From Lobosporangium transversale (Eukaryota; Mortierellomycota; Mortierellomycetes; Mortierellales; Mortierellaceae), in NCBI RefSeq assembly GCF_002105155.1, contig NW_019028984.1, positions 496,001-560,000 on the forward strand: a stretch of DNA of 64,000 bases. The letters are read 5' to 3'. How positions within the stretch are numbered: the stretch's first letter is position 1; each line of letters begins with the position of its first letter. The position numbers and the translations under genes are program-made. Under the pieces are notes generated by a model. That model had not been told where the DNA came from. It searched no databases and worked only from the letters and a program-made list of their open reading frames with translations. Below, one piece after another: positions 28,365 to 59,086 of this stretch.

Positions 28365-29274
28365 ATGATCCTTCCTCGTATCGACCTTGCGGCAGACGAC
28401 TATGCCACCACTTTAAAGCAGTTCTCACTTCTGCCTAACCAGATCCTTATCACTCCCACGCCCGACGACTCCCGCCTTCAGAACATCCTTAAGAACCAGA
28501 ACAAGGACGCCTATTGGGTACAGCCTCTTGCCTTTGATCAAAACGATCCCCTTGCTCAGATCCACAGCCTTTTGGACTCTGGTTCTGACAAGGTCATCCT
28601 TCCCTATGCTGCCTTTGCTGCTGGACTGGATGCATACAGCCACATTCCTCAGGAACGCCTTGCCGTCACACTCAATCCTGCAGAGTTTAACAAGGCTGAT
28701 CATCTCTTGAACACTGTCTCGGTCTTCATCCTCAATGTTGACACAACTGAGTCACTCGAGGCTATCAAAGCCGTTGCTCAGGTTGTTCAGAAGAGTCTCT
28801 TACCTCGTGGAGGTGTTAAACGCGTTATTGCCGCCTTTTCCGCCGTACCTGGGCAGCCATCTGTGCCTGCCAACACTCCTGGCTTGCTCGCCATCTCAGA
28901 ATTGGGCCGCATTGGCGTTGATACTTCATTGTCCACCGATGTCCTTTCAATTGATCATCAGGATGGCAAATTAAATTTGGGCGAAGCCTTCATGGCCACA
29001 ATTGTATCTGACCGTCCCGATGGGTTGTTCCCAACTATTGTTGTGGATGAGCAGGGTATCTCGCTCGGATTAGTCTATTCGTCTTTAGAAAGTGTTGTCG
29101 AATCCTTCCGTATTCGCCAAGGAGTCTATTTCTCGAGATCCCGTGGCCTCTGGCATAAGGGTGCTACTTCCGGAGCAACACAGGATTTGATCAAAGTCCA
29201 TGTTGATTGCGACAGCGATGCTCTCCAGTTCACTGTCCATCAGCACGGAGCTGGTAAGTTAATGGCCCAACTGC

Positions 29275-36664: not shown

Positions 36665-37407
36665 GATGCCCTTTTCCCATACGCTCAACACCACCATTTG
36701 ACTTGACTACGTCTCAATTTTATATTATGTGCTCCGATCATCCTTAGTATGATAATGGAATGGATCCAAGCAAGGATAGTACCACTATAGACCTTTTCGA
36801 GTAGCCCGGAGCGCATGTGGACGTGATCGGCATGCTCTTCTCACAATGACACTTGCTACGGCACTGTTGAAACATCGCCATTGTTGAAGGAGACGTAAAA
36901 AACGCCTCTCTGATCCTGTTACTGTCCCTTCCACCTCATTCTTCAACAGCACCATTGCTTCTCCTATAGTACATCTCCTACCAAAGTACCATCACTTATG
37001 GCACCACGCCAGTCAATATCACGAAACACTTCATCGGCGCTGAAGGATGTCTGGCCAAAGATAAGCCCCTACTGCAGCAGCATCGATTTTAGCATCTGCA
37101 TCAACAATAGCACCACCAAGAGCATCGGTGGCACAGCATCAGCAGTGACTTTAGCCTTCGAGCCATAGTTTCAAAGGAGAAGCACTATAGAGCAAGTTTC
37201 AACAGTACCAGGGAAAGACAGTTCCGACATGGTGTTCCATCTCCATATCCTCCACCGAGGTAAGTCCTTGTTCCAAACAAACCATATGACTAATACATCG
37301 AAACAGAAAGGCAAGGAGGAGTCTGGGTAGCTGCACACAAAAAGTGATCAATCTCATCAACCAATGATTTTTATGACGAAATCAAACCTTTTATTTCTAC
37401 AAAACAA

Positions 37408-39093
37408 TCAGGTGTGACTAACATGGTTTAATATGCATTTAGATGGACTCTCGTCATCTCTGGGTCGTTTAGGGCTTTTAGTCCTTGCATCTGCATCTGC
37501 GTCTGCTGAAGCTTTTCGCTTACATCCTTGATTTTCATTTGGAACGTCGTTCTTTGCGAAAAGCTTTGTAGCCCTCTTTCCCCAAGAAAGACGTCCTGCC
37601 TGATGGACATCCGATTTGCTCCTTAGTTTAGGAATGTTCGAAAACATCCAGGAGCAATCGAATTCAAGCTCCATGTCCTCTTGGGCCACAAAGCGATAAG
37701 TGTCAGTGCTCTCAGACTTGAGAGGCCTCTGCACTATATCACCTTGCTTTAGAATGGATCGAAGGCTTTTTCCCTTAGTGGTCTCGTGCGATTCTTCTAA
37801 AGTGGAAGAACTACTGTCGACTCTGAGATTCTCTACAGCCTCTGCGGGATCCCAGCTCTCTTTCACTTCATCGCTTCGCTCAAGGCCTTTAGTGTACGCA
37901 GCATCTGCAGATGCCTCTGCTTTTGCATGTCTAAGCGCTTCGTTGCGCAAAAGATTGGTGCGCAGGCCTTCCGACTTCTCACCTGGGAGCTTCTTTGCTA
38001 AGGCCTTGGCCCTCCTATACGCTCTGCCATTTGGATAGTTAGATTCTTCTAGAAGCACCTGCACAATTGGGACCTTCAAGTCCCTTGCAACAGAAGCAAT
38101 CGCCTCATTTGCCTGGTCTGCTACACTTTCCAACATGCAGATCTTCAAATAAGTGTTGGCGTTGACCTTCTTTGAGGGAGTATATTTCATCTTTCTTTTC
38201 AGCTCCATTTGCTCCTCTGCTACGGTCCTCGAGATTTTCTCCAAGATGCGAGGGTTGTATTGTGCTTGCTGGAAAAGGTCGTGCCGCCGAACCTTCCATT
38301 GATCCCTGAGCTGCAATTGGAATTTAAGTAGCCTTTGTACATCTTTCTCATTAGCCACCGGCTTTTCACTTGATGAAGCTGTCCCGACTTCAGACTTGAA
38401 GTGGCTTCGAGCCAGTTTCACCATTTCCGAGGCCTTGCGTCGGGCCTTTGCCTTTTGAGCCTTTTTCTGATTCTTACTCAGCCTGTGCACTGGTTCGGAA
38501 GATGATGTCTCTGTGGCCCCTGTAGTCGTTGTAGTTGCTGTAGTCTCGGTAGTCTCCGTAACCTTCGTAGTCTCTGCAACCTTCGTAGTCTCCGTAGTCT
38601 CCGTAGTCTCCGTAGTCTCTGCGGCTATTACCGTTGGTTGAGTGTGCTTTGAAGTACCAGACATAGGAATATTCATACTGCTCATGAGATCGAGTACTTT
38701 AGAATAAAACTGAGGCGTGTTGAGCATGATGGCCGAGATGGTTTCGACAGTCTCCTTGGTCGCTGGAGGCCTTGCATCAGTAGATCCAGTAGATGGTGAC
38801 GTGCTTGTTTGAGGTCGTGCAGTTATAGACGGGAGCTGTGGGGCTGTGGTGGCGCGCTCAAGTTTCTGAAGCTGCTCAAGTGTTGGTGGCGGAGCGAGCA
38901 CTGGTGCCATAGCATGAGATACAGTCCATGATGTAGATGATATGCCTGGTGGCGCAATGGTCTGTTTGAGAGAAGTGTGATGATGGAAAGGGGGCGGTGG
39001 TGGTGGTCGGTATGAAGAAGAAGGGAGACGTGGAGGGAAATAAGGAGAATATGTAGGCCGTTGCTGTTGCTGATTCAAACGCTTGGGTGTCAT
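37408..39093 (-). CDS. Unrecognised 561-aa basic protein, left-arm copy
   Basis: A single complete frame, with the same predicted protein as the right-arm copy. Features in order: an N-terminal Q- and P-rich segment (poly-Q near 8-11, poly-P near 31-36); a region with the short segment TISAIMLNTPQFYSKVLDLM near 117-136; T-E-T repeats (about 160-195); a strongly basic stretch KNQKKAQKAKARRK near 210-223; a charged, probably helical middle (DVQRLLKFQLQLRDQWKVRR and onward) to about 420; and a C-terminal basic, nuclear-signal-like stretch (CKRKAS, KSPKRPRDDE). There are no zinc knuckle, protease, polymerase or transposase motifs. It could be a nucleic-acid-binding accessory protein of a mobile element, or a host gene caught in the duplication. 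I do not recognise the family. Confidence 0.7.
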   Translation of the reverse strand: MTPKRLNQQQQRPTYSPYFPPRLPSSSYRPPPPPPFHHHTSLKQTIAPPGISSTSWTVSHAMAPVLAPPPTLEQLQKLERATTAPQLPSITARPQTSTSPSTGSTDARPPATKETVETISAIMLNTPQFYSKVLDLMSSMNIPMSGTSKHTQPTVIAAETTETTETTETTKVAETTKVTETTETTATTTTTGATETSSSEPVHRLSKNQKKAQKAKARRKASEMVKLARSHFKSEVGTASSSEKPVANEKDVQRLLKFQLQLRDQWKVRRHDLFQQAQYNPRILEKISRTVAEEQMELKRKMKYTPSKKVNANTYLKICMLESVADQANEAIASVARDLKVPIVQVLLEESNYPNGRAYRRAKALAKKLPGEKSEGLRTNLLRNEALRHAKAEASADAAYTKGLERSDEVKESWDPAEAVENLRVDSSSSTLEESHETTKGKSLRSILKQGDIVQRPLKSESTDTYRFVAQEDMELEFDCSWMFSNIPKLRSKSDVHQAGRLSWGKRATKLFAKNDVPNENQGCKRKASADADADARTKSPKRPRDDESPSKCILNHVSHT

Positions 39094-39438
39094 TGGAGCA
39101 ATTGATAATTCGGTGTCTGTGGCGTAGAAAATAGAGTTTGTGGATCAAAATTCGTTTTCTGTTTACGACGTAGAAAATAAAGTTGGTGAATTAGAATGTG
39201 CATCTGTTTATGGAGCTGGTGAATCAGAATGTCAGAATAGATTAGATGTGTATTGGAATTAATTAAATGTCTGTGCTGAGGTGAATTCAATGTCTATGTT
39301 GAAGTGAATTAGATGAGTATGTCAAGGTGAATTAGATGTTTATATTGAGGTGAATCAGATGGTCTATGCTGAATGATTAAGACAAGGTAATGAACAGAAA
39401 AAGAAAAGAAGAGAAAGAGGGAAAAGACCGTTGGTGTT

Positions 39439-39481
39439 GTTTATAAAGGCAGCCGAAATGGCGCCACAAATGAGTGACGTA
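39439..39481 (-). promoter_or_regulatory. TATA box and CRE-like element of the left-arm 561-aa gene
   Basis: This is the mirror of the right-arm promoter: TTTATAAAC (reverse strand, 39439-39447) and TACGTCA (39475-39481), about 350-390 bp upstream of the ATG. The leader between them and the ATG is CT-rich and then carries degenerate ATCTAATTCACCT repeats. Confidence 0.5.
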
Positions 39482-40937
39482 GTGTGCTGCCGTTGAAGCT
39501 GAGGAGGGCTAAGTGATATTCAAAGCACTGCTGAGGAAGGAGCGAGTGATGCTCGTGAAAGTCAGTACTTTGACATCAAAAGCACTGACTGAGTGCTGTA
39601 GTAAAAGACAATGCATGGGTGTACCTTGTTCTCTTATGGCCTAAAGTGAGACTAGTTTCTAAACAGTGGCAAAAAGAAATCCAGAATATGTCTCGATGCT
39701 TTGCAAAGCGTAAAAATTGACTTTATTCATTACTCTTCATACACCTACAAAGTAGAAGAAGGGAAAGTGTTGAAAAAGCCCTCATGGGTGGGGGAAACTC
39801 AGCTTCAAGATCAGGATGTTTCGTTGCATTGTCTGCGGTGCCTTGGAGCTTCTACCCTCTCCTATGATTGTTACCCTCGCTTCTCCAAGCAGAACCTCCA
39901 TTGCAGTAGCCTATCGAACGACTAGGACCTCAATTTGGCCAGTAAATATATCATCCAGGAGTTAATAGTGGATTGCTTCCAAGAGTCGAAAGCAGGTTAC
40001 ACCTAAGAGTTGATGCCATCTTATGTTCTTGGCAAAAATGATAAAGAGCTCTTATCTCCAAGTGCCGGGGCGATGAGCGGAGGGGATGTTAATCAATCAC
40101 AAACAATGCGAGCACGAGCCACAATATTTTCGATTTAGTTATTTTTCTCCAATGGTGAGGCGGTGCAACAAAGTGGAGAGATTGGTTTTTTTAAAAAAGC
40201 GAATAAGGCCCAGAGCACGGGTAAATTGACATCCATATATTATACACTTTTGGCCACAAGCAACAAGCTTTGGTTGGTTTAGCTGGAAGTAGAATCCAAG
40301 ACGGCGCTTTGTTCCTTTATTTCTTCATCCTTTCTTTCCCACCAAGGGCTGGAGCATTAGTGTAGGAGTTTTCTATATAAGTATATATTTGTTTTCCATA
40401 GCGGGCCTTGCCACAACAAGTAGGGCTTGGGACCAAAGCTGTGTATTCCTTCAGGAATGACACGTCGATTTCTTAATAAAAAACTGCATATGCAGATCCT
40501 CAATATGCTTTGTTGCTTTGATTAGATGACCGATTGAATATTTTTTTTTATTTTTTTACTTTATTAAGAGATTGTTTGCTATCTAGCTATCTAGCTTACC
40601 TGGTTACTATTCTAAGCTACAAGAAGCCAGACTCTTAGCCACCTTGGAGAGTGCTTTCCTTTATCATCATCGAAAAGACTCTCCAAGATGTTGTCCGGAG
40701 CACACCACGTGGAGGTGGTCTGGCATATCGTGCTCCGTTGGTCAGGCCCCATGGCCTTGCAAACGCCCGCACACACACACGTTTATTTACCCATGCCCAT
40801 TCCCATTCCCATTCCCAATCGAAGGGGCTCCGCCACCGCATGGCTCATTGAAGAACCAACGTAGGCTCATGCCCGTTCGGACTTATCTTGGATATGCATT
40901 GTTGCTATATTAAAGGGTGTTAGTATGAGTTTACTTT

Positions 40938-41322
40938 TTTTTTTTTTTTTTTTTTTTTGCATTATTTGTTTTTTATCATTGGCTTATTTTTTTTCTTTTT
41001 TTTTCTTTTTTTTTTTTTCTTCGAGTTATTTTTTCTTTGTCTTTGTTTTTTATCTTTAGTTTTGTTCTATTTGTTTTTTTATCGTCTGCTTTTTTAATCG
41101 TTGTTTTTTTTTTTTTTTTTTTTTTTTTTAGGCTTGGCTTTTTTTTTTTTTTTTTTTTTTTTAGGCTTGGCTTTTTTTTTTTTTTTTTTTTCTTTTTTGG
41201 CTTTTTCTTTTTTTGACTTTCTCTTTTTTTATTTTTTCTTATGGCTTTTTTTTTTTTTTTTTTTTTTTCTTTTGGCTTTTTTGTTTCTTTGTGATTTTTT
41301 TTTTTTTTTTTTTTGAAGGCAT
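40938..41322. repeat. T-rich tract with spaced GGCTTGGC cores, left arm
   Basis: Nearly 400 bases of T with short interruptions (GGCTTGGC, GGCTTTT, GACTTTC). Some 20- to 28-base pure T runs are joined by the same 8-base core. The complementary strand would read as a lysine-rich frame, which I treat as an artefact of composition. Confidence 0.85.
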
Positions 41323-41893
41323 TTGTTTTTGTCTTGATGATTTGTTCGGCCTTCAACTGGTAGCGCAGAGCTCTCAGTGCCAGCGCCTTCCAAAGTACAC
41401 CGTGGAATAGCCTGGTCGTTATGATCTGGAGTTATTCGAGAAGCCCCGACCATCATGCTCAGGAGGAGGCGGACTAGCCATTTGACCATGGGGAGGGCCC
41501 GGCCATTGGAGTGAGGCCGTTCGAGTGCGACTGTTTGGGCGCGGTTGTTTGAGCACGGCTATTTGGATATGGGCCTTTGAGTGTGGCTAGCCGAGTGTGG
41601 GCGTTTGGGTGTAGTAGCTCGGCCGTGAGCTATGAAGCTCTGGTTAGTTTAGACGACTTCATGTCGCTACAGTCTAATCATGGAATGAAAAGGGAGAGGT
41701 AGGCAGAAAAAGAAAAATTAGAACAAGAATATTGTAGCACAGAGCAAGTGTTGAGAACTTCAGTAGGAGTGAATGTTTGGGAGTGTTGCTTACCTTTCGT
41801 CTTGGTCGAGGAGGCCTATGGTCGAGAAGACCGAGGAGAAAAAGAAGAGGAAAGAAAAAAAAAGAAGAGAGTCAAAATTAGTCCTTTTATATT

Positions 41894-41925
<32 letters not shown>

Positions 41926-42622
41926 GCTTGACATGCGCTGAGTGACTTCTAAAGGCGCAATATTGGGTAATGGATATAATAAGTATATACATGTAGCTTG
42001 CTTGTTGTACGCTCAAGAGCGACCAATAAAAATGTACAAAAAAAAAAAAAAGAAAAAGAAAAAAGCGGCATGAGGCTATCTGCGCGCTTTTTTACGTCAT
42101 TCATCGTATTTCACATGAAGAATAAGAAAACCCTTGCGGCTGGACGTGGGTATACAACTCTATCTTCAACGCCTGTAAGCTCATACAAGCAGCATTCTGT
42201 CCATAACAGCTAGAGTGCGAGCTCCACTGCTCTCGAATCACTTATTCTTGTTAACAAAGCAGATCATCTTTATTCTCTTCGTCCATTCCCTCTCTCCACT
42301 CCTGTCAAGAAATGGGTGGGCTATCATGGAAACTGTGCTTCAGCAGCCTGCCTTTTTTTCCAGAATGTGATAGAAAATAACACATGACAATCCTCAGAAT
42401 ACCGCTGCGCCTTTTTTTTTTTTCTTCTTCATGCAATGCAATACAATGTAAAATAATATAATGCAGGACATTATAGTTGATTGGGATAAGCATTTGTGAT
42501 TTCATTATTTGAAGGTGAAACTAAGTATTAACGCTTGTATGTGGACCAATAAAAAGCACACCAGCGTGCCGGAAAACTACATGTCTCACTTTTGCCGCGT
42601 TCTGAAAAAAATAAAGAAAGGG

Positions 42623-42653
<31 letters not shown>

Positions 42654-43926
42654 GAGCTGGATACGACCTGCTACGGTACAGTTTCCACGATAGTCTTCCC
42701 CACCTCTTTCTAGGGTGAAGAGGGAGAATATAACAAGAGAGCTAAGAAGCAAGCTTGACTGGTAGTGCCTGATAAACCCCATTACTAAGGATCAAGAGGC
42801 ACTCGAGCTTAATCTTGGCAAAACGAGAGTATGCAAGTGCTAATATGTTTGTGTTCTGGAGCTCGCCTTTTTACTTCAGCTGCATCACTGTAAATGGATC
42901 AATGTTGCACCACAACTTTGCCTACCCACAAACAAGAGCACGGGCCACATTGCACTCTGCATGGTGTATGAATTTGCAGATCTTGAAGATGGTTGTTATT
43001 AATGCTATTCTCACCTCCAGCCGTGAGAATCTTCTCTTTCTCCACCTTGCAAGCATATGGAAAATGACGGATGATATCATAGCTGCGCAGACTACCTATT
43101 TTCAATTTCCGTTATGCCGCTTTTTTTTTTTTTTTTTTTTTTTGCACAACGCGGAAAAAGCAAGATACCGAATATACATATATATATTCAATACTTTTGA
43201 AATCACAAATTGGTTTCACTTACCATTTCCCCTTAATAAAGGCTTCTTTTCTCTTCTTTCTCTTTGATCAGCATGAAAGGAAAGCAACTCCTCAAACAGC
43301 CACTCCTACTGAATTTCCTGGCTCTCCCGCTCCACGCTGTACTGTTCTTCTTCTGGCTTTCCATTTTCTGCCTATCTCTCTCTCTTTCATACTATTATTA
43401 GGTTGCAAATCGAACAAACCCCTAGCCTGCTGTAGAACAAAAAACAAACTCGAGCAATCCAATAGCACAAAAGAAACAAACAAACAAGCTCCTTCATACC
43501 AGAAAAAGCACCATCCACTAAAGAGCCCTCGTCGTTGACAACAAGTATTGCATGGCTTCGTTTCGTCTTGCTTGTGAACATCTATTATTTATCCTATTAC
43601 TAAATAAACTCAGCATATTTACTAAACTATTCTCGTTCCTTCTTTGCCTTCTCTTTCCTAACTGTAACAAGGATCACTGACCCTAGATCCTCGCCGACGA
43701 TCATCCCAAAGCCTCCCATACAGGCATACTGTGCTTATAGAAATGGGATGAAAGCGGAACTGTAAGTACACTATCTTATGGAATATATATCGTACTTTTC
43801 TGTCCTTTATTGTCCTTTGCCGTGCTGTGCTGTGTTATCCTTGGTACTGGGATGCATTCTGCTGTATCCTGCTCGCCAAATATCCTAACTGTGTATTTTT
43901 TTTTCCCCTCATCTTCTATCCTTAGA

Positions 43927-44373
43927 GGCTCATCCGCTTGGGCTATAACCCGTTGGGCCCTCCACTGGCCCGCCCACCGACCCCCTCCATCGACTTCTCA
44001 TAGCTCCCTTAGGAGGGACCACTGTAGCAGCTCTAGAGGGCTTCTGGTCTCTGGATCTCGCTTTGATCCGAGTGCCTTTGGGGATGTCGTGTAAGAAATG
44101 GATGACACACAGTTGTGGTCATCTAAGAATGGCAAGTCAGTAGCGATCTGTTATTCATTGGACCCTATAGAGCGCGAGCCTCGGCCTTCGAGAAGGTCCT
44201 CCCTTCAGCAGGAGCAGGGTCAGGGTCAGATGTTATCAAGGCCTGGCAACATCTCAGGTGAGTATATATGTATATATAAACACAAAGAGCATATTAACTT
44301 GGTTTTACCATTGCTTTGTTCTCTCTATTTAGGTGGGATCTTTGGCAGCTCGGTGCTCTATAGGCTCTTTTGA
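43927..44373 (+). pseudogene. Possible spliced gene remnant in the spacer
   Basis: After an acceptor-like cttag (AG at 43925-43926), a frame reads GSSAWAITRWALHWPAHRPP and on to a TAA at 44092-44094. It resumes in the same frame at 44098 (MDDTQLWSSKNGKSVAICYS) and reaches a good donor near 44260 (ATCTCAG/gtgagt). The following intron ends tttag at about 44330-44333 and continues in phase (GIFGSSVLYRLF, stop at 44371-44373). Correct splicing phase suggests a former gene, but the internal stop and lack of recognisable motifs leave it unassigned. Confidence 0.3.
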
Positions 44374-45084
44374 ATAGCTCATTGTTACTGACATCATTCT
44401 TAGATCACCCCAATTAGCGAAGCTGCGCCAGGGGTGCCTGGACGTAGTGTATAGTGCATGGCGTAGAGGCGTCATGCTGTGTGATCCTGTTTCTTGCCGC
44501 TTGAACCAAAGGCACTTTGGTCAAAGTGAGGCTTCATTGGCTAGCCGTTCAATAGTCTACTGCAATGGGAGCTCAGGTTGGAGAAGCGAGAGCAAGGATC
44601 ATAAGGAGAGGGCTCTAAGTCAAAACATTAGATCGAGGAACACCATGCTTCTAATGCGGCTCGAAGCGCAGAGCCACGCTGCAGCAACCGTTCGCGGCGA
44701 GTCAAAAGCTAAAAGCCATCAGCAAAAAAAAAAAAAAAAAAAAAAACACAAACACAAACACAAACTCGATGCAAAAAAAAAAAAAAAAAAAAAAAAAGCA
44801 AATGTCCAAAGAAAATGACAACAATAACAAATAAGAGCAATAGCCAAAGGAAACAACAGCAACAAAAAAAAGCATATAACCAAAAACAATATCAAACCCA
44901 CTCATACTCAATTCAAGCCCGCATCAACTGAAGCCAATGTCAGTCAAAGCAAACATTGCATCCACAGCCAGGTCAGGCACAGGCAGCCTCGACCAAAGTC
45001 TATAACAGGTTGCCTCGATCGAAGCAAAGCTGTATAATCTTAATCAAGCCAACCAAAGACAGTCCAAAATAATCCAGAAAACCA

Positions 45085-45168
45085 AAGCCTGGTAATCGAA
45101 GCCTGGTAATCGAAGCCTGGTAATCGAAGCCTGGTAATCGAAGCCTGGTAATCGAAGCCCGACAACCG
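45085..45168. repeat. 14-bp tandem repeat
   Basis: Five perfect copies of AAGCCTGGTAATCG and one imperfect copy, embedded in a strand-biased, A-rich field of degenerate AAAGTCAGTCAA-like units (44940-45320). Confidence 0.92.
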
Positions 45169-45835
45169 AAGCCAGCCAAACAAAGGCAGTTAAATAAAGA
45201 CAGTCAAACAAAGGCAGCCAAATAAAGACAGTCATCCATAGACATTCAAACAAAGGAAAGCAACCAAAGTCAGTCAATGAAAGTCAGTCAACGAAAGTCA
45301 GTCAATCAAAGGCTACCAAAGTCAACCATCCAAGGCATCGTCAAAGGATATGCCAAAAGCATCTTCAAAGAGACTCAAATACAATTAAAGGCAACCAACA
45401 AACAGGCAGTAATTCACACAATTCAAGGCTGTCTACTTCTAAAAATCAAAACAAACCTTCCTTCAGCTAAGAACCTGGCCATCCTTGTAATAGACTGCAG
45501 CTTGGAAGCAGTAATTAGCAATAAACGCTGTTTATCTGAAAAGTTGGCAGATGGATATCCTTGATCACTGTACTTGCAGTTATTCTTGGATGCAAATTAA
45601 AATTCCTGTAGAGAAATCAATGGATTAACTGTAGTAGCAAGTCACTGAAGTAGCTCGTAACTAGACCGCACCTAAGTATCAACGCTTGAAGGCACTCAAG
45701 CAATTACACACAACAAAATGAGGTCCAAATAAGGCTCAAAGACTTTTGAATAATTTTCCTGTCCACCATGATCGCCTTGGTCTTTGCACCGCTGACTCAT
45801 TTATCAGCTCCCTTATCTGTTTTATTCTTTATCAG

Positions 45836-45869
<34 letters not shown>

Positions 45870-47154
45870 CCTGATGTATATTCAATAATCCGCAATTTGA
45901 GAGATTGGGCGAAATTCAATTATTTTCTCCTCTATGAATAAAAGTTTCCATGTTGATATATTGATATAACCCCAGAGCCAATTTAAAGGCACCACACGCA
46001 TCATAGCAGAAGAGTTTCGTGGAAAGACGGCGGGTGATAATAGCATCGATTCCATATCTCACGACTTTCGGTCGGTGAGATGATCCAATGAAGCAACTGG
46101 AGAGCACCTTTAATCTTCAACTTGCCTGCTGGAGTTTTCTCTTTATTAGCGACTGTAAATATCTACATAAACTTAACCGAAACGTAGATACGATATGTGT
46201 TTCTTGGCATGAAGCTCGATACAAGCTTTACATTAGTTCACGATGGGGTGCTTAGAGCTCCCAAAACCAAATCCTCAGGCGTAGCAACTCTTTGGAATGT
46301 AATATTCTGCCAGAGAGCATTATTTAACACATTCTTTTATCCTTAAGTCAGTTAGAAAACAGATTTCGTCCGTCTATTGGATAGCGAAGACGACAAAGGA
46401 AGTCTTACGCTCATTATCCGTACCAGCGACCCTTTCCTGTGTGATCTTTCTCTTTAATAAATCTCGAGCTACAGAACTACATATCTATCTGACATGGGCT
46501 CATCCAGAAAATCCTCATGTCAATGATTTATCGCGTCTTTGTGCGACGCGTTATTGCCACTAATTTCTACTGCTAACTTTTTGGCAGGTTGATTTTAGTT
46601 GGAAATTTCTCTTGTGTGTTTTTTAGCATCTTTCAGTTCTTTAACCAGGTCATTATTATATTGCATACTGAAATACACAACAATCTACAACTTGATGACG
46701 AGATCAATTTTAACCAATCAAGATTTTACGCATTTGCACACTCAGATTCTTGACGGTTCTTGGGCCGTGGTTTTTTGTTGAGGGACCTGGATGGGGTGCT
46801 GTCCTCTCCCACCACATACACAAAGAAAAAACTACTCTCGCCTACTCAAACGAAGAAAAGTCTCTCTTGGACGCAGCAATCAATTTGTGCTTCGACTATT
46901 TTGCCGTGTTGTCAACACTCCTCATCTCACCATGTCAGACCTTGGCCAACATAATTGTTGTGTGTGGTGAATATCTCGAATTTGACTTGTAGTTCTTGTG
47001 GAAGAGCTGTTATTCACGTTTAACAAAAACAAAATAAAATAAAAAGACGAGAAAAGAGAAAAGAGAGAAAAAAAAAGAGTTATTCACTCCTTTCACGTCA
47101 TTCAATAAAGCTCTCTTTCTTTTTATGAAACTCCCTTTCGCACCATTTAACGAT

Positions 47155-47384
47155 GAATAAGATGTGGGAACACACATCACATCCATGCGGTATTTATTCA
47201 AAATCGTATCTATGTGTAACTACAAGTTTGTCTACGGGCACCATACGTTAAGTAACCATGGTGCAAGCGTGTATAATTACTACGCCCTCACTACGCTCGC
47301 ACTGCACCCCCATCTGCTTGTTACTATTTACACATGGGGCGTGTTTTTATCACGTTCAACTGTTTGTACATATTATTTTGTGCA
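47155..47384 (+). repeat. Diverged direct repeat, copy 1
   Basis: It begins GAATAAGATGTGGGAACACA and ends TATTATTTTGTGCAC. It matches 47712-47894 in the same order, with a deletion of about 45 bp in the second copy. No coding content. Confidence 0.8.
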
Positions 47385-47449
47385 CAGATATTAATTATTA
47401 TGCAACACGTGTTCTGTAAAAGCAACAAAGCTCCCTTTCACGCCATTTA

Positions 47450-47524
47450 ATGAAACTCCCTCTCACGCCATTTAATGAAACTCCCTCTCACGCCATTTAA
47501 TGAAACCCCCTCTCACGCCATTCA
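47450..47524. repeat. 25-bp tandem repeat
   Basis: Three adjacent units of ATGAAACTCCCTCTCACGCC plus ATTTA, the third with two changes. Isolated relatives lie at about 47126-47151, 47430-47449, 47628-47646 and 48010-48030, so the unit is a dispersed motif of this spacer region. Confidence 0.88.
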
Positions 47525-47711
47525 AGAACTCCTCCCTCCCTTTCACACTTTCTCTTTCTTTTGTGGAACTTGTCAGTAGTTATCAATTAGAGATTCATTC
47601 ATATTGTTCACCACATACTCCTCAGAACTCCCTTTCACGCTATTAAATATGGCAATTGAAAAATTTTAAACAGACAAGTAGTAATCAGGGACAGAAGCAA
47701 GTGAGAATAAG

Positions 47712-47894
47712 AGAATAAGATGTGGGAACACACATCACGTCCTTGTCTACGGGTACCATACATGGAGTAGCCATGGTGCAAACGTGTATAATCACCACGC
47801 CCCTTCAATGCTCGCATCGTGCTCCCTGATCGTTACTATTTACACATGGGGCGAGGTTTTATGATACAAAGTCATTTGTGTATTATTTTGTGCA
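47712..47894 (+). repeat. Diverged direct repeat, copy 2
   Basis: Second copy of the 47155-47384 unit. Conserved islands include GTCTACGGGTACCATAC, CCATGGTGCAA and TTACTATTTACACATGGGGC. Confidence 0.8.
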
Positions 47895-49269
47895 TGAAAC
47901 AGATCTCGTATTCAAAAACTCCATTATCTTTTTTCATGAGCACACATATTAATTTATTAATTTTAATTTTAATGTTTCCCGTGAACTATGAAATATGCAA
48001 CAACGATGAATGAAATTCCTTTCACACCACTGCCCGGTGAAAAACCAAAAAAAAAAAAAAAAAAAAAAAAAAAAAGCGGCATAACGGAAATTGAAAATAG
48101 GTAGTCTGCGCAGCTATGATATCATCCGTCATTTTCCATATGCTTGCAAGGTGGAGAAAGAGAAGATTCTCACGGCTGGAGGTGAGAATAGCATTAATAA
48201 CAACCATCTTCAAGATCTGCAAATTCATACACCATGCAGAGTGCAATGTGGCCCGTGCTCTTGTTTGTGGGTAGGCAAAGTTGTGGTGCAACATTGATCC
48301 ATTTACAGTGATGCAGCTGAAGTAAAAAGGCGAGCTCCAGAACACAAACATATTAGCACTTGCATACTCTCGTTTTGCCAAGATTAAGCTCGAGTGCCTC
48401 TTGATCCTTAGTAATGGGGTTTATCAGGCACTACCAGTCAAGCTTGCTTCTTAGCTCTCTTGTTATATTCTCCCTCTTCACCCTAGAAAGAGGTGGGGAA
48501 GACTATCGTGGAAACTGTACCGTAGCAGGTCGTATCCAGCTCGCCTTTTTTTTTTTTTTTTTTTTTTTTTTTCCCTTTCTTTATTTTTTTCAGAACGCGG
48601 CAAAAGTGAGACATGTAGTTTTCCGGCACGCTGGTGTGCTTTTTATTGGTCCACATACAAGCGTTAATACTTAGTTTCACCTTCAAATAATGAAATCACA
48701 AATGCTTATCCCAATCAACTATAATGTCCTGCATTATATTATTTTACATTGTATTGCATTGCATGAAGAAGAAAAAAAAAAAAGGCGCAGCGGTATTCTG
48801 AGGATTGTCATGTGTTATTTTCTATCACATTCTGGAAAAAAAGGCAGGCTGCTGAAGCACAGTTTCCATGATAGCCCACCCATTTCTTGACAGGAGTGGA
48901 GAGAGGGAATGGACGAAGAGAATAAAGATGATCTGCTTTGTTAACAAGAATAAGTGATTCGAGAGCAGTGGAGCTCGCACTCTAGCTGTTATGGACAGAA
49001 TGCTGCTTGTATGAGCTTACAGGCGTTGAAGATAGAGTTGTATACCCACGTCCAGCCGCAAGGGTTTTCTTATTCTTCATGTGAAATACGATGAATGACG
49101 TAAAAAAGCGCGCAGATAGCCTCATGCCGCTTTTTTCTTTTTCTTTTTTTTTTTTTTGTACATTTTTATTGGTCGCTCTTGAGCGTACAACAAGCAAGCT
49201 ACATGTATATACTTATTATATCCATTACCCAATATTGCGCCTTTAGAAGTCACTCAGCGCATGTCAAGC

Positions 49270-49302
<33 letters not shown>

Positions 49303-49879
49303 AATATAAAAGGACTAATTTTGACTCTCTTCTTTTTTTTTCTTTCCTCTTCTTTTTCTCCTCGGTCTTCTCGACCATAGGCCTCCTCGACCAAGACGAA
49401 AGGTAAGCAACACTCCCAAACATTCACTCCTACTGAAGTTCTCAACACTTGCTCTGTGCTACAATATTCTTGTTCTAATTTTTCTTTTTCTGCCTACCTC
49501 TCCCTTTTCATTCCATGATTAGACTGTAGCGACATGAAGTCGTCTAAACTAACCAGAGCTTCATAGCTCACGGCCGAGCTACTACACCCAAACGCCCACA
49601 CTCGGCTAGCCACACTCAAAGGCCCATATCCAAATAGCCGTGCTCAAACAACCGCGCCCAAACAGTCGCACTCGAACGGCCTCACTCCAATGGCCGGGCC
49701 CTCCCCATGGTCAAATGGCTAGTCCGCCTCCTCCTGAGCATGATGGTCGGGGCTTCTCGAATAACTCCAGATCATAACGACCAGGCTATTCCACGGTGTA
49801 CTTTGGAAGGCGCTGGCACTGAGAGCTCTGCGCTACCAGTTGAAGGCCGAACAAATCATCAAGACAAAACAAATGCCTT

Positions 49880-50255
49880 CAAAAAAAAAAAAAAAAAAAA
49901 TCACAAAGAAACAAAAAAGCCAAAAGAAAAAAAAAAAAAAAAAAAAAAGCCATAAGAAAAAATAAAAAAAGAGAAAGTCAAAAAAAGAAAAAGCCAAAAA
50001 AGAAAAAAAAAAAAAAAAAAAGCCAAGCCTAAAAAAAAAAAAAAAAAAAAAAAAAGCCAAGCCTAAAAAAAAAAAAAAAAAAAAAAAAACAACGATTAAA
50101 AAAGCAGACGATAAAAAAACAAATAGAACAAAACTAAAGATAAAAAACAAAGACAAAGAAAAATAACTCGAAGAAAAAAAAAAAAAGAAAAAAAAAGAAA
50201 AAAAATAAGCCAATGATAAAAAACAAATAATGCAAAAAAAAAAAAAAAAAAAAAA
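49880..50255. repeat. A-rich tract with spaced GCCAAGCC cores, right arm
   Basis: Mirror of the T-rich tract at 40938-41322. It consists of long A runs joined by GCCAAGCCT, AAAGCCATAAG and similar short cores. Run lengths differ slightly between the arms. Confidence 0.85.
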
Positions 50256-51708
50256 GTAAACTCATACTAACACCCTTTAATATAGCAACAATGCATATCC
50301 AAGATAAGTCCGAACGGGCATGAGCCTACGTTGGTTCTTCAATGAGCCATGCGGTGGCGGAGCCCCTTCGATTGGGAATGGGAATGGGAATGGGCATGGG
50401 TAAATAAACGTGTGTGTGTGCGGGCGTTTGCAAGGCCATGGGGCCTGACCAACGGAGCACGATATGCCAGACCACCTCCACGTGGTGTGCTCCGGACAAC
50501 ATCTTGGAGAGTCTTTTCGATGATGATAAAGGAAAGCACTCTCCAAGGTGGCTAAGAGTCTGGCTTCTTGTAGCTTAGAATAGTAACCAGGTAAGCTAGA
50601 TAGCTAGATAGCAAACAATCTCTTAATAAAGTAAAAAAATAAAAAAAAATATTCAATCGGTCATCTAATCAAAGCAACAAAGCATATTGAGGATCTGCAT
50701 ATGCAGTTTTTTATTAAGAAATCGACGTGTCATTCCTGAAGGAATACACAGCTTTGGTCCCAAGCCCTACTTGTTGTGGCAAGGCCCGCTATGGAAAACA
50801 AATATATACTTATATAGAAAACTCCTACACTAATGCTCCAGCCCTTGGTGGGAAAGAAAGGATGAAGAAATAAAGGAACAAAGCGCCGTCTTGGATTCTA
50901 CTTCCAGCTAAACCAACCAAAGCTTGTTGCTTGTGGCCAAAAGTGTATAATATATGGATGTCAATTTACCCGTGCTCTGGGCCTTATTCGCTTTTTTAAA
51001 AAAACCAATCTCTCCACTTTGTTGCACCGCCTCACCATTGGAGAAAAATAACTAAATCGAAAATATTGTGGCTCGTGCTCGCATTGTTTGTGATTGATTA
51101 ACATCCCCTCCGCTCATCGCCCCGGCACTTGGAGATAAGAGCTCTTTATCATTTTTGCCAAGAACATAAGATGGCATCAACTCTTAGGTGTAACCTGCTT
51201 TCGACTCTTGGAAGCAATCCACTATTAACTCCTGGATGATATATTTACTGGCCAAATTGAGGTCCTAGTCGTTCGATAGGCTACTGCAATGGAGGTTCTG
51301 CTTGGAGAAGCGAGGGTAACAATCATAGGAGAGGGTAGAAGCTCCAAGGCACCGCAGACAATGCAACGAAACATCCTGATCTTGAAGCTGAGTTTCCCCC
51401 ACCCATGAGGGCTTTTTCAACACTTTCCCTTCTTCTACTTTGTAGGTGTATGAAGAGTAATGAATAAAGTCAATTTTTACGCTTTGCAAAGCATCGAGAC
51501 ATATTCTGGATTTCTTTTTGCCACTGTTTAGAAACTAGTCTCACTTTAGGCCATAAGAGAACAAGGTACACCCATGCATTGTCTTTTACTACAGCACTCA
51601 GTCAGTGCTTTTGATGTCAAAGTACTGACTTTCACGAGCATCACTCGCTCCTTCCTCAGCAGTGCTTTGAATATCACTTAGCCCTCCTCAGCTTCAACGG
51701 CAGCACAC

Positions 51709-51751
51709 TACGTCACTCATTTGTGGCGCCATTTCGGCTGCCTTTATAAAC
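51709..51751 (+). promoter_or_regulatory. CRE-like element and TATA box of the right-arm 561-aa gene
   Basis: TACGTCA at 51709-51715 and TTTATAAAC at 51743-51751, followed by a CT-rich stretch, as expected for a fungal core promoter. The leader to the ATG (about 340 bases) contains degenerate ATCTAATTCACCT(CA) repeats at 51832-51990. Confidence 0.5.
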
Positions 51752-52096
51752 AACACCAACGGTCTTTTCCCTCTTTCTCTTCTTTTCTTTTTCTGTTCAT
51801 TACCTTGTCTTAATCATTCAGCATAGACCATCTGATTCACCTCAATATAAACATCTAATTCACCTTGACATACTCATCTAATTCACTTCAACATAGACAT
51901 TGAATTCACCTCAGCACAGACATTTAATTAATTCCAATACACATCTAATCTATTCTGACATTCTGATTCACCAGCTCCATAAACAGATGCACATTCTAAT
52001 TCACCAACTTTATTTTCTACGTCGTAAACAGAAAACGAATTTTGATCCACAAACTCTATTTTCTACGCCACAGACACCGAATTATCAATTGCTCCA

Positions 52097-53782
52097 ATGA
52101 CACCCAAGCGTTTGAATCAGCAACAGCAACGGCCTACATATTCTCCTTATTTCCCTCCACGTCTCCCTTCTTCTTCATACCGACCACCACCACCGCCCCC
52201 TTTCCATCATCACACTTCTCTCAAACAGACCATTGCGCCACCAGGCATATCATCTACATCATGGACTGTATCTCATGCTATGGCACCAGTGCTCGCTCCG
52301 CCACCAACACTTGAGCAGCTTCAGAAACTTGAGCGCGCCACCACAGCCCCACAGCTCCCGTCTATAACTGCACGACCTCAAACAAGCACGTCACCATCTA
52401 CTGGATCTACTGATGCAAGGCCTCCAGCGACCAAGGAGACTGTCGAAACCATCTCGGCCATCATGCTCAACACGCCTCAGTTTTATTCTAAAGTACTCGA
52501 TCTCATGAGCAGTATGAATATTCCTATGTCTGGTACTTCAAAGCACACTCAACCAACGGTAATAGCCGCAGAGACTACGGAGACTACGGAGACTACGGAG
52601 ACTACGAAGGTTGCAGAGACTACGAAGGTTACGGAGACTACCGAGACTACAGCAACTACAACGACTACAGGGGCCACAGAGACATCATCTTCCGAACCAG
52701 TGCACAGGCTGAGTAAGAATCAGAAAAAGGCTCAAAAGGCAAAGGCCCGACGCAAGGCCTCGGAAATGGTGAAACTGGCTCGAAGCCACTTCAAGTCTGA
52801 AGTCGGGACAGCTTCATCAAGTGAAAAGCCGGTGGCTAATGAGAAAGATGTACAAAGGCTACTTAAATTCCAATTGCAGCTCAGGGATCAATGGAAGGTT
52901 CGGCGGCACGACCTTTTCCAGCAAGCACAATACAACCCTCGCATCTTGGAGAAAATCTCGAGGACCGTAGCAGAGGAGCAAATGGAGCTGAAAAGAAAGA
53001 TGAAATATACTCCCTCAAAGAAGGTCAACGCCAACACTTATTTGAAGATCTGCATGTTGGAAAGTGTAGCAGACCAGGCAAATGAGGCGATTGCTTCTGT
53101 TGCAAGGGACTTGAAGGTCCCAATTGTGCAGGTGCTTCTAGAAGAATCTAACTATCCAAATGGCAGAGCGTATAGGAGGGCCAAGGCCTTAGCAAAGAAG
53201 CTCCCAGGTGAGAAGTCGGAAGGCCTGCGCACCAATCTTTTGCGCAACGAAGCGCTTAGACATGCAAAAGCAGAGGCATCTGCAGATGCTGCGTACACTA
53301 AAGGCCTTGAGCGAAGCGATGAAGTGAAAGAGAGCTGGGATCCCGCAGAGGCTGTAGAGAATCTCAGAGTCGACAGTAGTTCTTCCACTTTAGAAGAATC
53401 GCACGAGACCACTAAGGGAAAAAGCCTTCGATCCATTCTAAAGCAAGGTGATATAGTGCAGAGGCCTCTCAAGTCTGAGAGCACTGACACTTATCGCTTT
53501 GTGGCCCAAGAGGACATGGAGCTTGAATTCGATTGCTCCTGGATGTTTTCGAACATTCCTAAACTAAGGAGCAAATCGGATGTCCATCAGGCAGGACGTC
53601 TTTCTTGGGGAAAGAGGGCTACAAAGCTTTTCGCAAAGAACGACGTTCCAAATGAAAATCAAGGATGTAAGCGAAAAGCTTCAGCAGACGCAGATGCAGA
53701 TGCAAGGACTAAAAGCCCTAAACGACCCAGAGATGACGAGAGTCCATCTAAATGCATATTAAACCATGTTAGTCACACCTGA
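52097..53782 (+). CDS. Unrecognised 561-aa basic protein, right-arm copy
   Basis: A complete frame coding for the same protein as the left-arm copy, residue for residue as far as I can see. The gene has its own promoter-like elements (TATA at 51743) and an AATAAA at 53794-53799, shortly after the stop, so it looks like a whole transcription unit rather than a fragment. Codon use is like that of the neighbouring genes, without the extreme A/T bias of the surrounding arm. The lack of disabling changes in either copy means selection, very recent duplication or gene conversion. The domain layout is described under the left-arm copy. It reads towards TOM40. Confidence 0.72.
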   Translation: MTPKRLNQQQQRPTYSPYFPPRLPSSSYRPPPPPPFHHHTSLKQTIAPPGISSTSWTVSHAMAPVLAPPPTLEQLQKLERATTAPQLPSITARPQTSTSPSTGSTDARPPATKETVETISAIMLNTPQFYSKVLDLMSSMNIPMSGTSKHTQPTVIAAETTETTETTETTKVAETTKVTETTETTATTTTTGATETSSSEPVHRLSKNQKKAQKAKARRKASEMVKLARSHFKSEVGTASSSEKPVANEKDVQRLLKFQLQLRDQWKVRRHDLFQQAQYNPRILEKISRTVAEEQMELKRKMKYTPSKKVNANTYLKICMLESVADQANEAIASVARDLKVPIVQVLLEESNYPNGRAYRRAKALAKKLPGEKSEGLRTNLLRNEALRHAKAEASADAAYTKGLERSDEVKESWDPAEAVENLRVDSSSSTLEESHETTKGKSLRSILKQGDIVQRPLKSESTDTYRFVAQEDMELEFDCSWMFSNIPKLRSKSDVHQAGRLSWGKRATKLFAKNDVPNENQGCKRKASADADADARTKSPKRPRDDESPSKCILNHVSHT

Positions 53783-54837
53783 TTGTTTTGTAGAAATAAA
53801 AGGTTTGATTTCGTCATAAAAATCATTGGTTGATGAGATTGATCACTTTTTGTGTGCAGCTACCCAGACTCCTCCTTGCCTTTCTGTTTCGATGTATTAG
53901 TCATATGGTTTGTTTGGAACAAGGACTTACCTCGGTGGAGGATATGGAGATGGAACACCATGTCGGAACTGTCTTTCCCTGGTACTGTTGAAACTTGCTC
54001 TATAGTGCTTCTCCTTTGAAACTATGGCTCGAAGGCTAAAGTCACTGCTGATGCTGTGCCACCGATGCTCTTGGTGGTGCTATTGTTGATGCAGATGCTA
54101 AAATCGATGCTGCTGCAGTAGGGGCTTATCTTTGGCCAGACATCCTTCAGCGCCGATGAAGTGTTTCGTGATATTGACTGGCGTGGTGCCATAAGTGATG
54201 GTACTTTGGTAGGAGATGTACTATAGGAGAAGCAATGGTGCTGTTGAAGAATGAGGTGGAAGGGACAGTAACAGGATCAGAGAGGCGTTTTTTACGTCTC
54301 CTTCAACAATGGCGATGTTTCAACAGTGCCGTAGCAAGTGTCATTGTGAGAAGAGCATGCCGATCACGTCCACATGCGCTCCGGGCTACTCGAAAAGGTC
54401 TATAGTGGTACTATCCTTGCTTGGATCCATTCCATTATCATACTAAGGATGATCGGAGCACATAATATAAAATTGAGACGTAGTCAAGTCAAATGGTGGT
54501 GTTGAGCGTATGGGGAAAGGGCATCACTTCACAAGCGCGTTTTATACTACAAAGAGGGTATTGGGGAAGTATCCGATTACCCATGGTTGGCTAATGATGA
54601 TGGTTATCTCCAACTATGACTGGACATGCTCATATGCGCCGTGTTGAGTGAAAAGACATTCCTGACTGGCGTCTCATTTTGGCTCAAAAATGTCTCATAA
54701 AAACGTGATCGAACCTTTGTTTGGTTGATCAGAGCAGTCATGCTTCCTTGCCTTTCTTGATTGACTTCGGGTCTGCATCGTCGGCTGTCATTGCACATTC
54801 TTACGCTCACAAACACTCGCAGATAGATTCATCCGTT

Positions 54838-56974: not shown

Positions 56975-59086
56975 ATGCCTGAAGCAAAGATTTACGCAGC
57001 GTTGCATGTGGCGGAGATTTTGTTCTCCATCGCACTACATCTCTCACGGAATGACTTTTTGTGTACACTTCGCGTCTGTCGTTTTTGGCATGCTCATCTA
57101 CTCCCTCTTCTTTGGCACACCATAAGACTACCACCACGCCTGCCAGCCTTACGAGCTTTAAGTAGCTTTGAAATAGGCGCCACTAGCAACAACGCCAATA
57201 TTAATGATGACAACAACGATGGCTCGCCATCCCTGCCAGGATTCCCCAGCACCGGTATCTTTCAAGAACGCGCTCACTTGATCCGTTCTTTGAATTGCAA
57301 TAACATCCAGTACCATCAGCGGTATCTTATACCCTATTGCAACCAATTGACGAGACTAGAGATCGTAGACCTCACAGAGGAAGCGTTGCCGTTTCTTAGG
57401 TTGAATATGAAAACCTTAGTATCAATTGACTTTGTACGTGAGCGCAATCTGGTTCGAAGACCGTTCGAAATCTTGAATTTTTTGCGGACCCTTGATCAAG
57501 CCCCATCTTTGGATCAAATGAGGCTAGAAAATGTTTCGATCGATGGACCCTTGGATGAAGAAAATGCAGAGGAATATATAGCTCAGCGGAGAAGAGACAA
57601 CATGGATAGAAGACGGCCCATGCCACCACTTTCTCTTCCTTCTCCGGTTTCACCAACCTCCTTACCATTTTCCTCTTCATCGCTATCCTCATCGCAGGTA
57701 TCGACTACAGCAGCAATAGGAGCGCCTATCATCATCAGAACAATGGAAGAAAAAGCAGAAGCGATTGCATTGTTCTACCAAATTTTACATCGCCTATCTG
57801 TAGTGGAGCTAATTGGGGCCGTCATTGAAACACCTCCACCCATCGAAAGCGATATTTTTTATCGAATTCGGCGATTGACAATACGAAAAAGTACCATGAG
57901 CATCCGAGGCCAGCTCCAGATCATCAGTCAATGTCAGTATCTAACGCATCTCACTTTACAACTCATCGGCGAAAATAACAGTCATAGCCATAATAATGAT
58001 GGTCTACTTCGCTCAAGATCAAGATCAGAGCTCAGTCTGGAAGAGGAACTCGAGATTGAGCGGTTGGAGAGCTGCTGTCCTCATATAACGCATTTGGATG
58101 TGTCATTATCAACGATCAGGGATCGGGAGCTTGCAGCCCTAGTGCGGCAGCTACCAGGTTTAATTTCATTACGGGCACAGGTGACAAATATGGCTCAGGA
58201 AACAGTGGAGACATTGATAGGCCCAAAATCGAGGGTCCGTGAACAGCTGCAAGAGTTGGATGTAGTGGATGCCCGACCGATGCAGACGGATTTGACTCAG
58301 CGGATTTTGTGCTCTTGCACAAGGTTGAAACGGTTCAGAGGATCATACGTTCATGTTCATCAGTTGATAAGATCCTTGAAGGAGGATTTGACGCATACAT
58401 CAACGACAGCAACACAGATAACGAATGATATGGTGAAAAACTCGCCATCCACTTCTACCAATTCAATAATGTCATCGTTTCCATCATTCTTGTCGCTCGG
58501 CTGGGTCTGTCTTGAGTTAGAAGAGCTCCAGCTCAGTTTCATTGGTATTGGCGATTTAAGCCCTGATGAAGACGAAATAGTAGAACCAGAAGCACGAAGG
58601 CAGCTTAAATTACAGGAACAGCTTAATGTGTATAATCAATTGTCCAAACTTCGACGACTTAGAGTCTTACACTTGGGTGGGAATAACAATTCAACATGGC
58701 GTCGAACCATGACATTCACGCTATCGTTAAAAAGTGGATTTGAAACCCTCGAGACACTAAAAGAGTTGAGAGAGTTTTCTTTCAACTATATGTTCCATCA
58801 ACTTGGGTTAGAGGAAATTGAATTCATGGTGAAACATTGGCCCAAACTTCGCAAAGTCGTCGGCATCCTCCGTGTGGTTGATCCTCTCCCCTCCAATACT
58901 TCATCAGAGTCTACGGCGCAGCAGCAAGAAGTAGCAAAAGGAAAAGAGGTCTCCACTGCGTCTATAGCAACAACTGCAAGTAGCGGATATGCAAATGGGA
59001 ATATCAGGAAGTCAAGGTTTCATGTAGAGCGGCCAGATATCTATTTACGTCGAAAGTATCCTCTCATAGAGTTTTTAGACAGATGA
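56975..59086 (+). CDS. F-box/LRR protein (703 aa)
   Basis: A single frame of 703 codons. The F-box-like segment is at the N-terminus (LHVAEILFSIALHLSRNDFL, then CRFWHAHLLPLLWHTI at about 34-50). It is followed by leucine-rich text (LTRLEIVDLTEEALPFLRL, LVSIDFVRERNLV, LTHLTLQLIGE, ITHLDVSLSTIRDRELAALV, LRRLRVLHLGGNN). Low-complexity inserts are an N/D patch near 73-82 and a long serine/proline block near 215-245. The C-terminus has a short basic end. It is probably a substrate adaptor of an SCF ubiquitin ligase. The start at 56975 gives a very short tail before the F-box, which is normal for this group. It lies 429 bp downstream of TOM40 on the same strand and shows no operon-like link. Confidence 0.85.
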   Translation: MPEAKIYAALHVAEILFSIALHLSRNDFLCTLRVCRFWHAHLLPLLWHTIRLPPRLPALRALSSFEIGATSNNANINDDNNDGSPSLPGFPSTGIFQERAHLIRSLNCNNIQYHQRYLIPYCNQLTRLEIVDLTEEALPFLRLNMKTLVSIDFVRERNLVRRPFEILNFLRTLDQAPSLDQMRLENVSIDGPLDEENAEEYIAQRRRDNMDRRRPMPPLSLPSPVSPTSLPFSSSSLSSSQVSTTAAIGAPIIIRTMEEKAEAIALFYQILHRLSVVELIGAVIETPPPIESDIFYRIRRLTIRKSTMSIRGQLQIISQCQYLTHLTLQLIGENNSHSHNNDGLLRSRSRSELSLEEELEIERLESCCPHITHLDVSLSTIRDRELAALVRQLPGLISLRAQVTNMAQETVETLIGPKSRVREQLQELDVVDARPMQTDLTQRILCSCTRLKRFRGSYVHVHQLIRSLKEDLTHTSTTATQITNDMVKNSPSTSTNSIMSSFPSFLSLGWVCLELEELQLSFIGIGDLSPDEDEIVEPEARRQLKLQEQLNVYNQLSKLRRLRVLHLGGNNNSTWRRTMTFTLSLKSGFETLETLKELREFSFNYMFHQLGLEEIEFMVKHWPKLRKVVGILRVVDPLPSNTSSESTAQQQEVAKGKEVSTASIATTASSGYANGNIRKSRFHVERPDIYLRRKYPLIEFLDR

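Follow-up and report, generated by a model that had tools for sequence, protein, structure and literature searches.

An inverted duplication of Lobosporangium transversale and its dispersed family of inverted repeats carrying HDV-like ribozyme candidates

What places two almost identical arms of 6.5 kb in inverted orientation within one stretch of the Lobosporangium transversale genome, and what keeps them alike? We analysed a window of 64,000 nucleotides, which belongs to contig C84 (994,324 bases), and searched the 42.7 Mb of the genome for relatives of its repeat. By BLASTN, the left arm (36665-43143, plus strand) aligns with the right arm (54525-48053, minus strand) over 6481 columns with 99.83% identity, one mismatch and nine gap openings. 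The right arm (48047-54525, minus strand) can be taken to start at 48047 or at 48053, since its inner edge lies within a T run. A global alignment of the arms shows 13 differences. One of them is a clear base substitution, with T at 36675 facing C at 54515, 10 bp inside the outer edge; the remainder are T/A-run lengths or shifts. Most of the run-length differences fall in a T-rich tract (40935-41314, plus strand; mirror 49881-50255). These results bear out a sequence-only reading, made before this analysis, of a near-perfect inverted duplication whose arms differ mainly in homopolymer lengths. The length and identity of the BLASTN match rule out a chance or low-complexity origin. Other self-matches of the window are only 36-41 bp long and consist of T/A runs.

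The same reading took the whole 6.45 kb as a single unit, and here our results depart from it. Each arm consists of a 2.6-kb part belonging to a dispersed family (40541-43143, plus strand; mirror 48053-50650, minus strand) and a 3.9-kb outer part (36665-40540, plus strand; mirror 50650-54525, minus strand), which is found in the genome only within the two window arms. The search for other copies that it had proposed gave a divided answer: for the inner 2.6 kb, numerous genomic relatives were found, about 64-89% identical to it, whereas the outer part has no third copy among the candidates scored by the DNA search. Family copy numbers are lower bounds, because this search skips common words and scores the best candidates only.

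As the earlier reading had claimed, each arm holds a whole gene, in the form of an identical open reading frame of 561 codons, intact in both copies (37408-39093, minus strand; 52097-53782, plus strand). This 561-aa ORF is an orphan: no relative was found by Pfam, in PDB or in the rest of the L. transversale genome, nor in the protein database (8000 candidates scored in one search, all 5251 in a second). The repeat sits between a leftward-reading Ras gene and a rightward-reading Porin_3 gene, as assigned by Pfam; by eye, we take the left neighbour to be Rab7 and the right neighbour to be Tom40 or VDAC. Elsewhere in the window, weak F-box/LRR matches, mostly below the Pfam cut-offs, occur in the ORFs at 12680-15538, 16614-18785 and 56975-59086, and another ORF matches a portion of the L. 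transversale histidinol dehydrogenase with 100% identity. No tRNA or other Rfam family reached its gathering score in the window.

To describe the family, we compared 13 regions, the window included. Inverted pairs are present in 11 of them; C39 holds a single arm, and C118:1-8000 shows no pair within the piece. The inverted pairs observed lie on separate contigs, with no more than one intact pair on each, and solo or decayed arms are numerous. Arm ends vary from locus to locus. Homology between loci stops outward at an A run after AATAAA in 38 of 39 copies, in a context of A-rich DNA; in the window, this AATAAA marks the outer edge of the family part at 40560-40565 (minus strand) and 50625-50630 (plus strand). 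A splice-donor-like AGGTAAG is found in 35 of the 39 copies just 3' of the ribozyme candidate described below (40595-40601, minus strand; 50589-50595, plus strand). The A-type loci C56 and C1 additionally share outer arms (92-93%) and spacer (95-96%). The first 1.5 kb of the window spacer (43144-48046) is 70% like the spacer of C108 and, over part of its length, 78% like C39. In the spacer of the C4 pair we observed a 1057-aa ORF with RVT, RNase H and integrase in Ty3-type order (C4:28836-32006).

We then compared the arms within and between loci. Arm identity is 97.7-99.8% at 10 of the 11 measured inverted pairs; the arms of C76, at a contig start, reach only 95 and 91% in two pieces. Extended alignments give 7.7 kb with one mismatch and 11 gaps at C56 and 3.2 kb with one mismatch at C78, and the C4 arms differ by 22 mismatches. 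For the arm tree, ten loci were aligned and A/T-rich columns removed, leaving 1654 columns; C78 was excluded, with only about 470 bp per arm shared. In the kept columns, left arms are 74-87% identical between subfamilies and 98-100% identical within the A group (C1, C4, C56, C62, C76). The arms are thus far more alike within loci than between subfamilies, which shows that they evolve in concert.

In agreement with this, the two arms are each other's nearest relatives at seven of the ten loci in the tree (C4, C56, C62, C108, C36, C118 and the window). A single clade unites the C1 arms and the left arm of C76, which is identical; the two C76 arms do not group together, and the C63 arms share a clade with those of C118. 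Arms cluster by locus, without the side-specific lineages expected of mere jumping, which points to conversion or rebuilding within loci. Two of the possibilities raised from the window letters therefore fit these data: a fold-back element, in that the family is dispersed and has inverted arms, and an inverted duplication whose arms gene conversion keeps similar, in that arms are closest relatives at most tree loci.

The third possibility, a local assembly product in which a single outer part was placed twice, becomes less likely. It would readily account for one substitution in 6.5 kb, and contigs C1, C76, C4 and C118 end near family loci, indicating that such repeats do trouble assembly. However, both outer junctions of the window arms enter different unique DNA, the spacers are not palindromic (that of the window locus, of about 4.9 kb, included), and the window arms do differ, in one substitution and in run lengths. 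Many other loci independently show the same plan, some of them with more differences between arms, as the mismatches at C4 illustrate, and we consider an assembly origin improbable.

The origin of the outer part is informed by C78, which provides a direct record of an inverted repeat extending into a gene. There, a 1068-codon LRR ORF is complete on the right side (66586-69789) and enters the right arm at 67351, while the left arm contains only its last 255 codons or so, followed by unrelated DNA. The assignment is by Pfam, which finds LRR in the piece of the ORF outside the arm. Because the ORF is whole on the right and truncated on the left, neighbouring DNA has been copied from right to left beside the family part, and arms that take in the end of a gene are able to grow into adjoining DNA. 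We infer that the outer part of the window arms is likewise copied neighbouring DNA. The outermost 10 bp, which are the same on both arms up to the T/C substitution, could represent a microhomology at a template switch.

Alternatively, the outer part could belong to an inserted unit instead of being a copied flank. The main rival for its origin is insertion of the whole, a 17.9-kb unit between the Rab-like and porin-family genes. Such a unit would be a non-autonomous DNA transposon whose terminal inverted repeats (TIRs) are very long, and the 561-aa ORF would encode either cargo or a protein of the transposon itself. Dispersal of the family, the outer arms and spacer shared by C56 and C1, and the position of the window copy between genes that read outward are all consistent with such a unit, and an ORF without relatives in the searches made is unlike an old host gene. 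On the other hand, no target-site duplication (TSD) was seen by eye at the printed edges of six loci (C56, the window, C62, C36, C108 and C118), in line with what had been noted earlier for the window. Likewise, the remark that no transposase or reverse transcriptase (RT) is visible holds for the 14 unspliced window ORFs given to Pfam; from other copies, two spacer ORFs were given to it, one set being C1 and C62, and these too showed no transposase family. In addition, the position of the arm ends is not the same at all loci, the tree does not separate left arms from right arms as two lineages, and the C78 arm includes part of a neighbouring gene. Taken with these observations, a TIR transposon appears unlikely.

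The best-conserved stretch of the arm is an HDV-like ribozyme candidate, one per arm and both facing outward. The left candidate lies at 40627-40736 on the minus strand, with a predicted cut between 40737 and 40736, and the right one at 50454-50563 on the plus strand, with a predicted cut between 50453 and 50454. In the 21.5 kb searched, RF02682 matched with 36 bits (E 0.0018) and RF00094 with 34.8 bits (E 0.093), below the respective Rfam gathering scores of 44 and 50. The Rfam alignment matches L3 (CACCUC), CAAC and the GGCUAAG core, and the J4/2 core motif with the catalytic C, TGGCYAAGAGTCTGG, is present in all 39 copies. A nested double pseudoknot of P1, P2, P3, P1.1 and P4 fits the family: counting 28 pairs in six helices, including the P1/P2 pseudoknot, over 20 aligned copies of the 39 located, 98.2% of 543 pair cells are paired. 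Slid-structure controls reach 28.7-49.4%, a comparison biased towards the unslid structure, which was derived from the window sequence.

Two pairs are changed on both sides among the aligned copies. Covariation is not significant: of 500 shuffles, 53 attain the paired percentage and 45 the covariation score. This is explained by a ribozyme sequence that hardly varies. Ungapped identity among five subfamily arms is 96.2% within the ribozyme as opposed to 76.3% outside, and with gaps counted the values are 95.5% and 46.9% elsewhere. This constancy, while the remaining arm drifts, suggests from sequence comparison that the candidate is probably under selection as RNA. Decayed copies also occur: those of C58, C48 and C50 are without P3/L3, and that of C78 has two broken P1 pairs. 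A second conserved block of the arm, at 41791-41840, is 90% identical over 50 bp in five subfamilies, and its outward strand holds AAAGGTAAGC.

Across the genome, a 22-letter ribozyme core gave 61 matches and its reversed control none. By hand count, 33 of these cores end in TGTG, as in the window family (class 1), and 28 in TGCG (class 2). Class 2 differs from class 1 in letters of P1 and P4. A class-1 model finds six of the six class-2 copies taken, with E values of 5e-9 to 1e-12; it also yields antisense P4 matches and a weak match at window position 29183 (E 0.23). The joint alignment of both classes misplaced P1 of class 2, since the P1-P2 linker differs in length between them, and was left out of the pair counts. 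A loose RF00094 search of the genome gave 42 matches, none above the cut-off, and had matches in four of 14 control genomes as well.

A second inverted duplication lies at C64:25000-39000. Its arms, at least 6.0 kb long, are 98.5% identical (78 mismatches), and in each of them a class-2 candidate precedes an LRR ORF some 1000 aa in length. Together with the window family, this locus shows that ribozyme candidates and inverted duplications coincide more than once. Sequence resembling the inner arm (C62:384600-385131) precedes a class-2 candidate by about 500 bp, and 4 kb downstream there is an RNase H piece of a LINE-like ORF. Class-2 cores are also paired outward, 3.8 kb apart, at C52:428443-432267 and C64:116020-119867; each of these pairs is perhaps another ribozyme-bounded element.

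Could the ribozyme instead show where retroposed DNA has its 5' end, as it does in R2 and L1Tc, with the arms being two retroposons in opposite orientation? HDV-like ribozymes are described at the 5' ends of R2 and L1Tc/ingi retrotransposons (PMC3774820; PMC4035085), and the AATAAA and A run some 60-80 nt 3' of our candidate would suit a retroposed tail end. However, homology between copies extends as much as 2.6 kb beyond the predicted cut on its upstream side, so that the ribozyme is not at the 5' terminus, and no RT is found among the ORFs tested in the window copy. Nor can a single event yield near-identical arms at many loci, and we regard paired retroposons as very improbable.

With a core of a few kb, flanked by inverted repeats that resemble each other more than they resemble those of other loci, the plan also recalls centromeres. 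Core size, arm size and within-locus likeness match the description of Candida tropicalis centromeres, which have cores of 2-5 kb, inverted repeats of 2-5 kb and a likeness higher within than across centromeres (PMC4741521). By this analogy, the C4 core would have been enlarged by its Ty3-type retroelement, and intact pairs on separate contigs, at most one on each, would be as expected. Telomere repeats were not found near the family in the 13 regions. Against this analogy, solo or decayed arms are many, the window locus lies in gene-bearing DNA, and some long contigs, such as C40, have none among the matches listed. A conserved ribozyme is not expected in a centromere either, and we judge that these loci are most unlikely to be candidate centromeres.

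Our preferred explanation, which we hold with somewhat better than even confidence, is that the window locus belongs to a fold-back-like family bearing ribozymes, in which recombination between the inverted repeats both homogenises the arms and makes them longer. Inverted arms would supply homology within one chromosome, so that a break in one arm may be repaired from the other. Either gene conversion or break-induced copying that starts within an arm would then keep the arms of a locus alike, and copying beyond the family edge would lengthen them into adjoining DNA. At the window locus, such copying would have duplicated 3.9 kb of DNA, the 561-aa ORF included, from one side to the other. We infer the direction and date of this copying, and the way in which copies spread.

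The repeat family is apparently non-coding, and if it is transcribed and its RNA cleaves itself, the arrangement of the ribozymes would matter. As both face outward, an outward or crossing transcript from either strand is predicted to meet exactly one sense copy, with a cut near the outer edge of the family part; the cut would part the palindromic RNA from downstream sequence. One may go further and propose a new class of eukaryotic element, in which paired outward ribozymes would cut crossing transcripts to yield a long hairpin RNA whose 3' end is defined and has no tail, while arm-to-arm copying would preserve the palindrome and take up neighbouring genes. We put this forward tentatively and regard it as doubtful. 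In L. transversale, one ribozyme core is matched at least 61 times, and roughly half of the matches lie within long, self-homogenising inverted-repeat arms. If active, these ribozymes would offer a test case for the role of self-cleaving RNA in a non-coding palindrome.

Homogenised inverted repeats are already known, as are HDV-type ribozymes within mobile elements; to our knowledge, no described family joins the two in this way. HDV-like ribozymes are known mostly at the 5' ends of retroelements. In the literature searched, mostly without subscription papers, we found no work linking Lobosporangium to centromeres or ribozymes, and none on self-cleaving ribozymes of Mortierella or on HDV-like ribozymes in inverted repeats. 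Fold-back (FB-like) elements are dispersed and have long inverted arms, a variable spacer and no obvious transposase. The family shares the first three of these features and shows no transposase in the ORFs tested, but differs in having no TSD seen, arms homogenised within loci, a ribozyme candidate and arms that reach into neighbouring genes. The palindromes of the human Y chromosome likewise have arms homogenised with each other and genes inside them, but are not a dispersed, ribozyme-bearing family.

Candida tropicalis centromeres (PMC4741521) share the few-kb core and the inverted repeats more alike within loci, whereas our family has many solo arms and a ribozyme candidate. With the ribozymes of R2 and L1Tc/ingi (PMC3774820; PMC4035085), the candidates share the double-pseudoknot helices, the L3 and J4/2 core and dispersal in repeats; they differ in that two are predicted per locus, inverted and outward, with homology upstream of the cut and no RT seen. 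Finally, retrozymes as described (PMC7761336) carry hammerhead ribozymes in direct repeats and give rise to small circular RNAs. Like them, the present family consists of non-coding dispersed repeats with self-cleaving ribozyme motifs, but these are HDV-like candidates in inverted arms instead of hammerheads in direct repeats.
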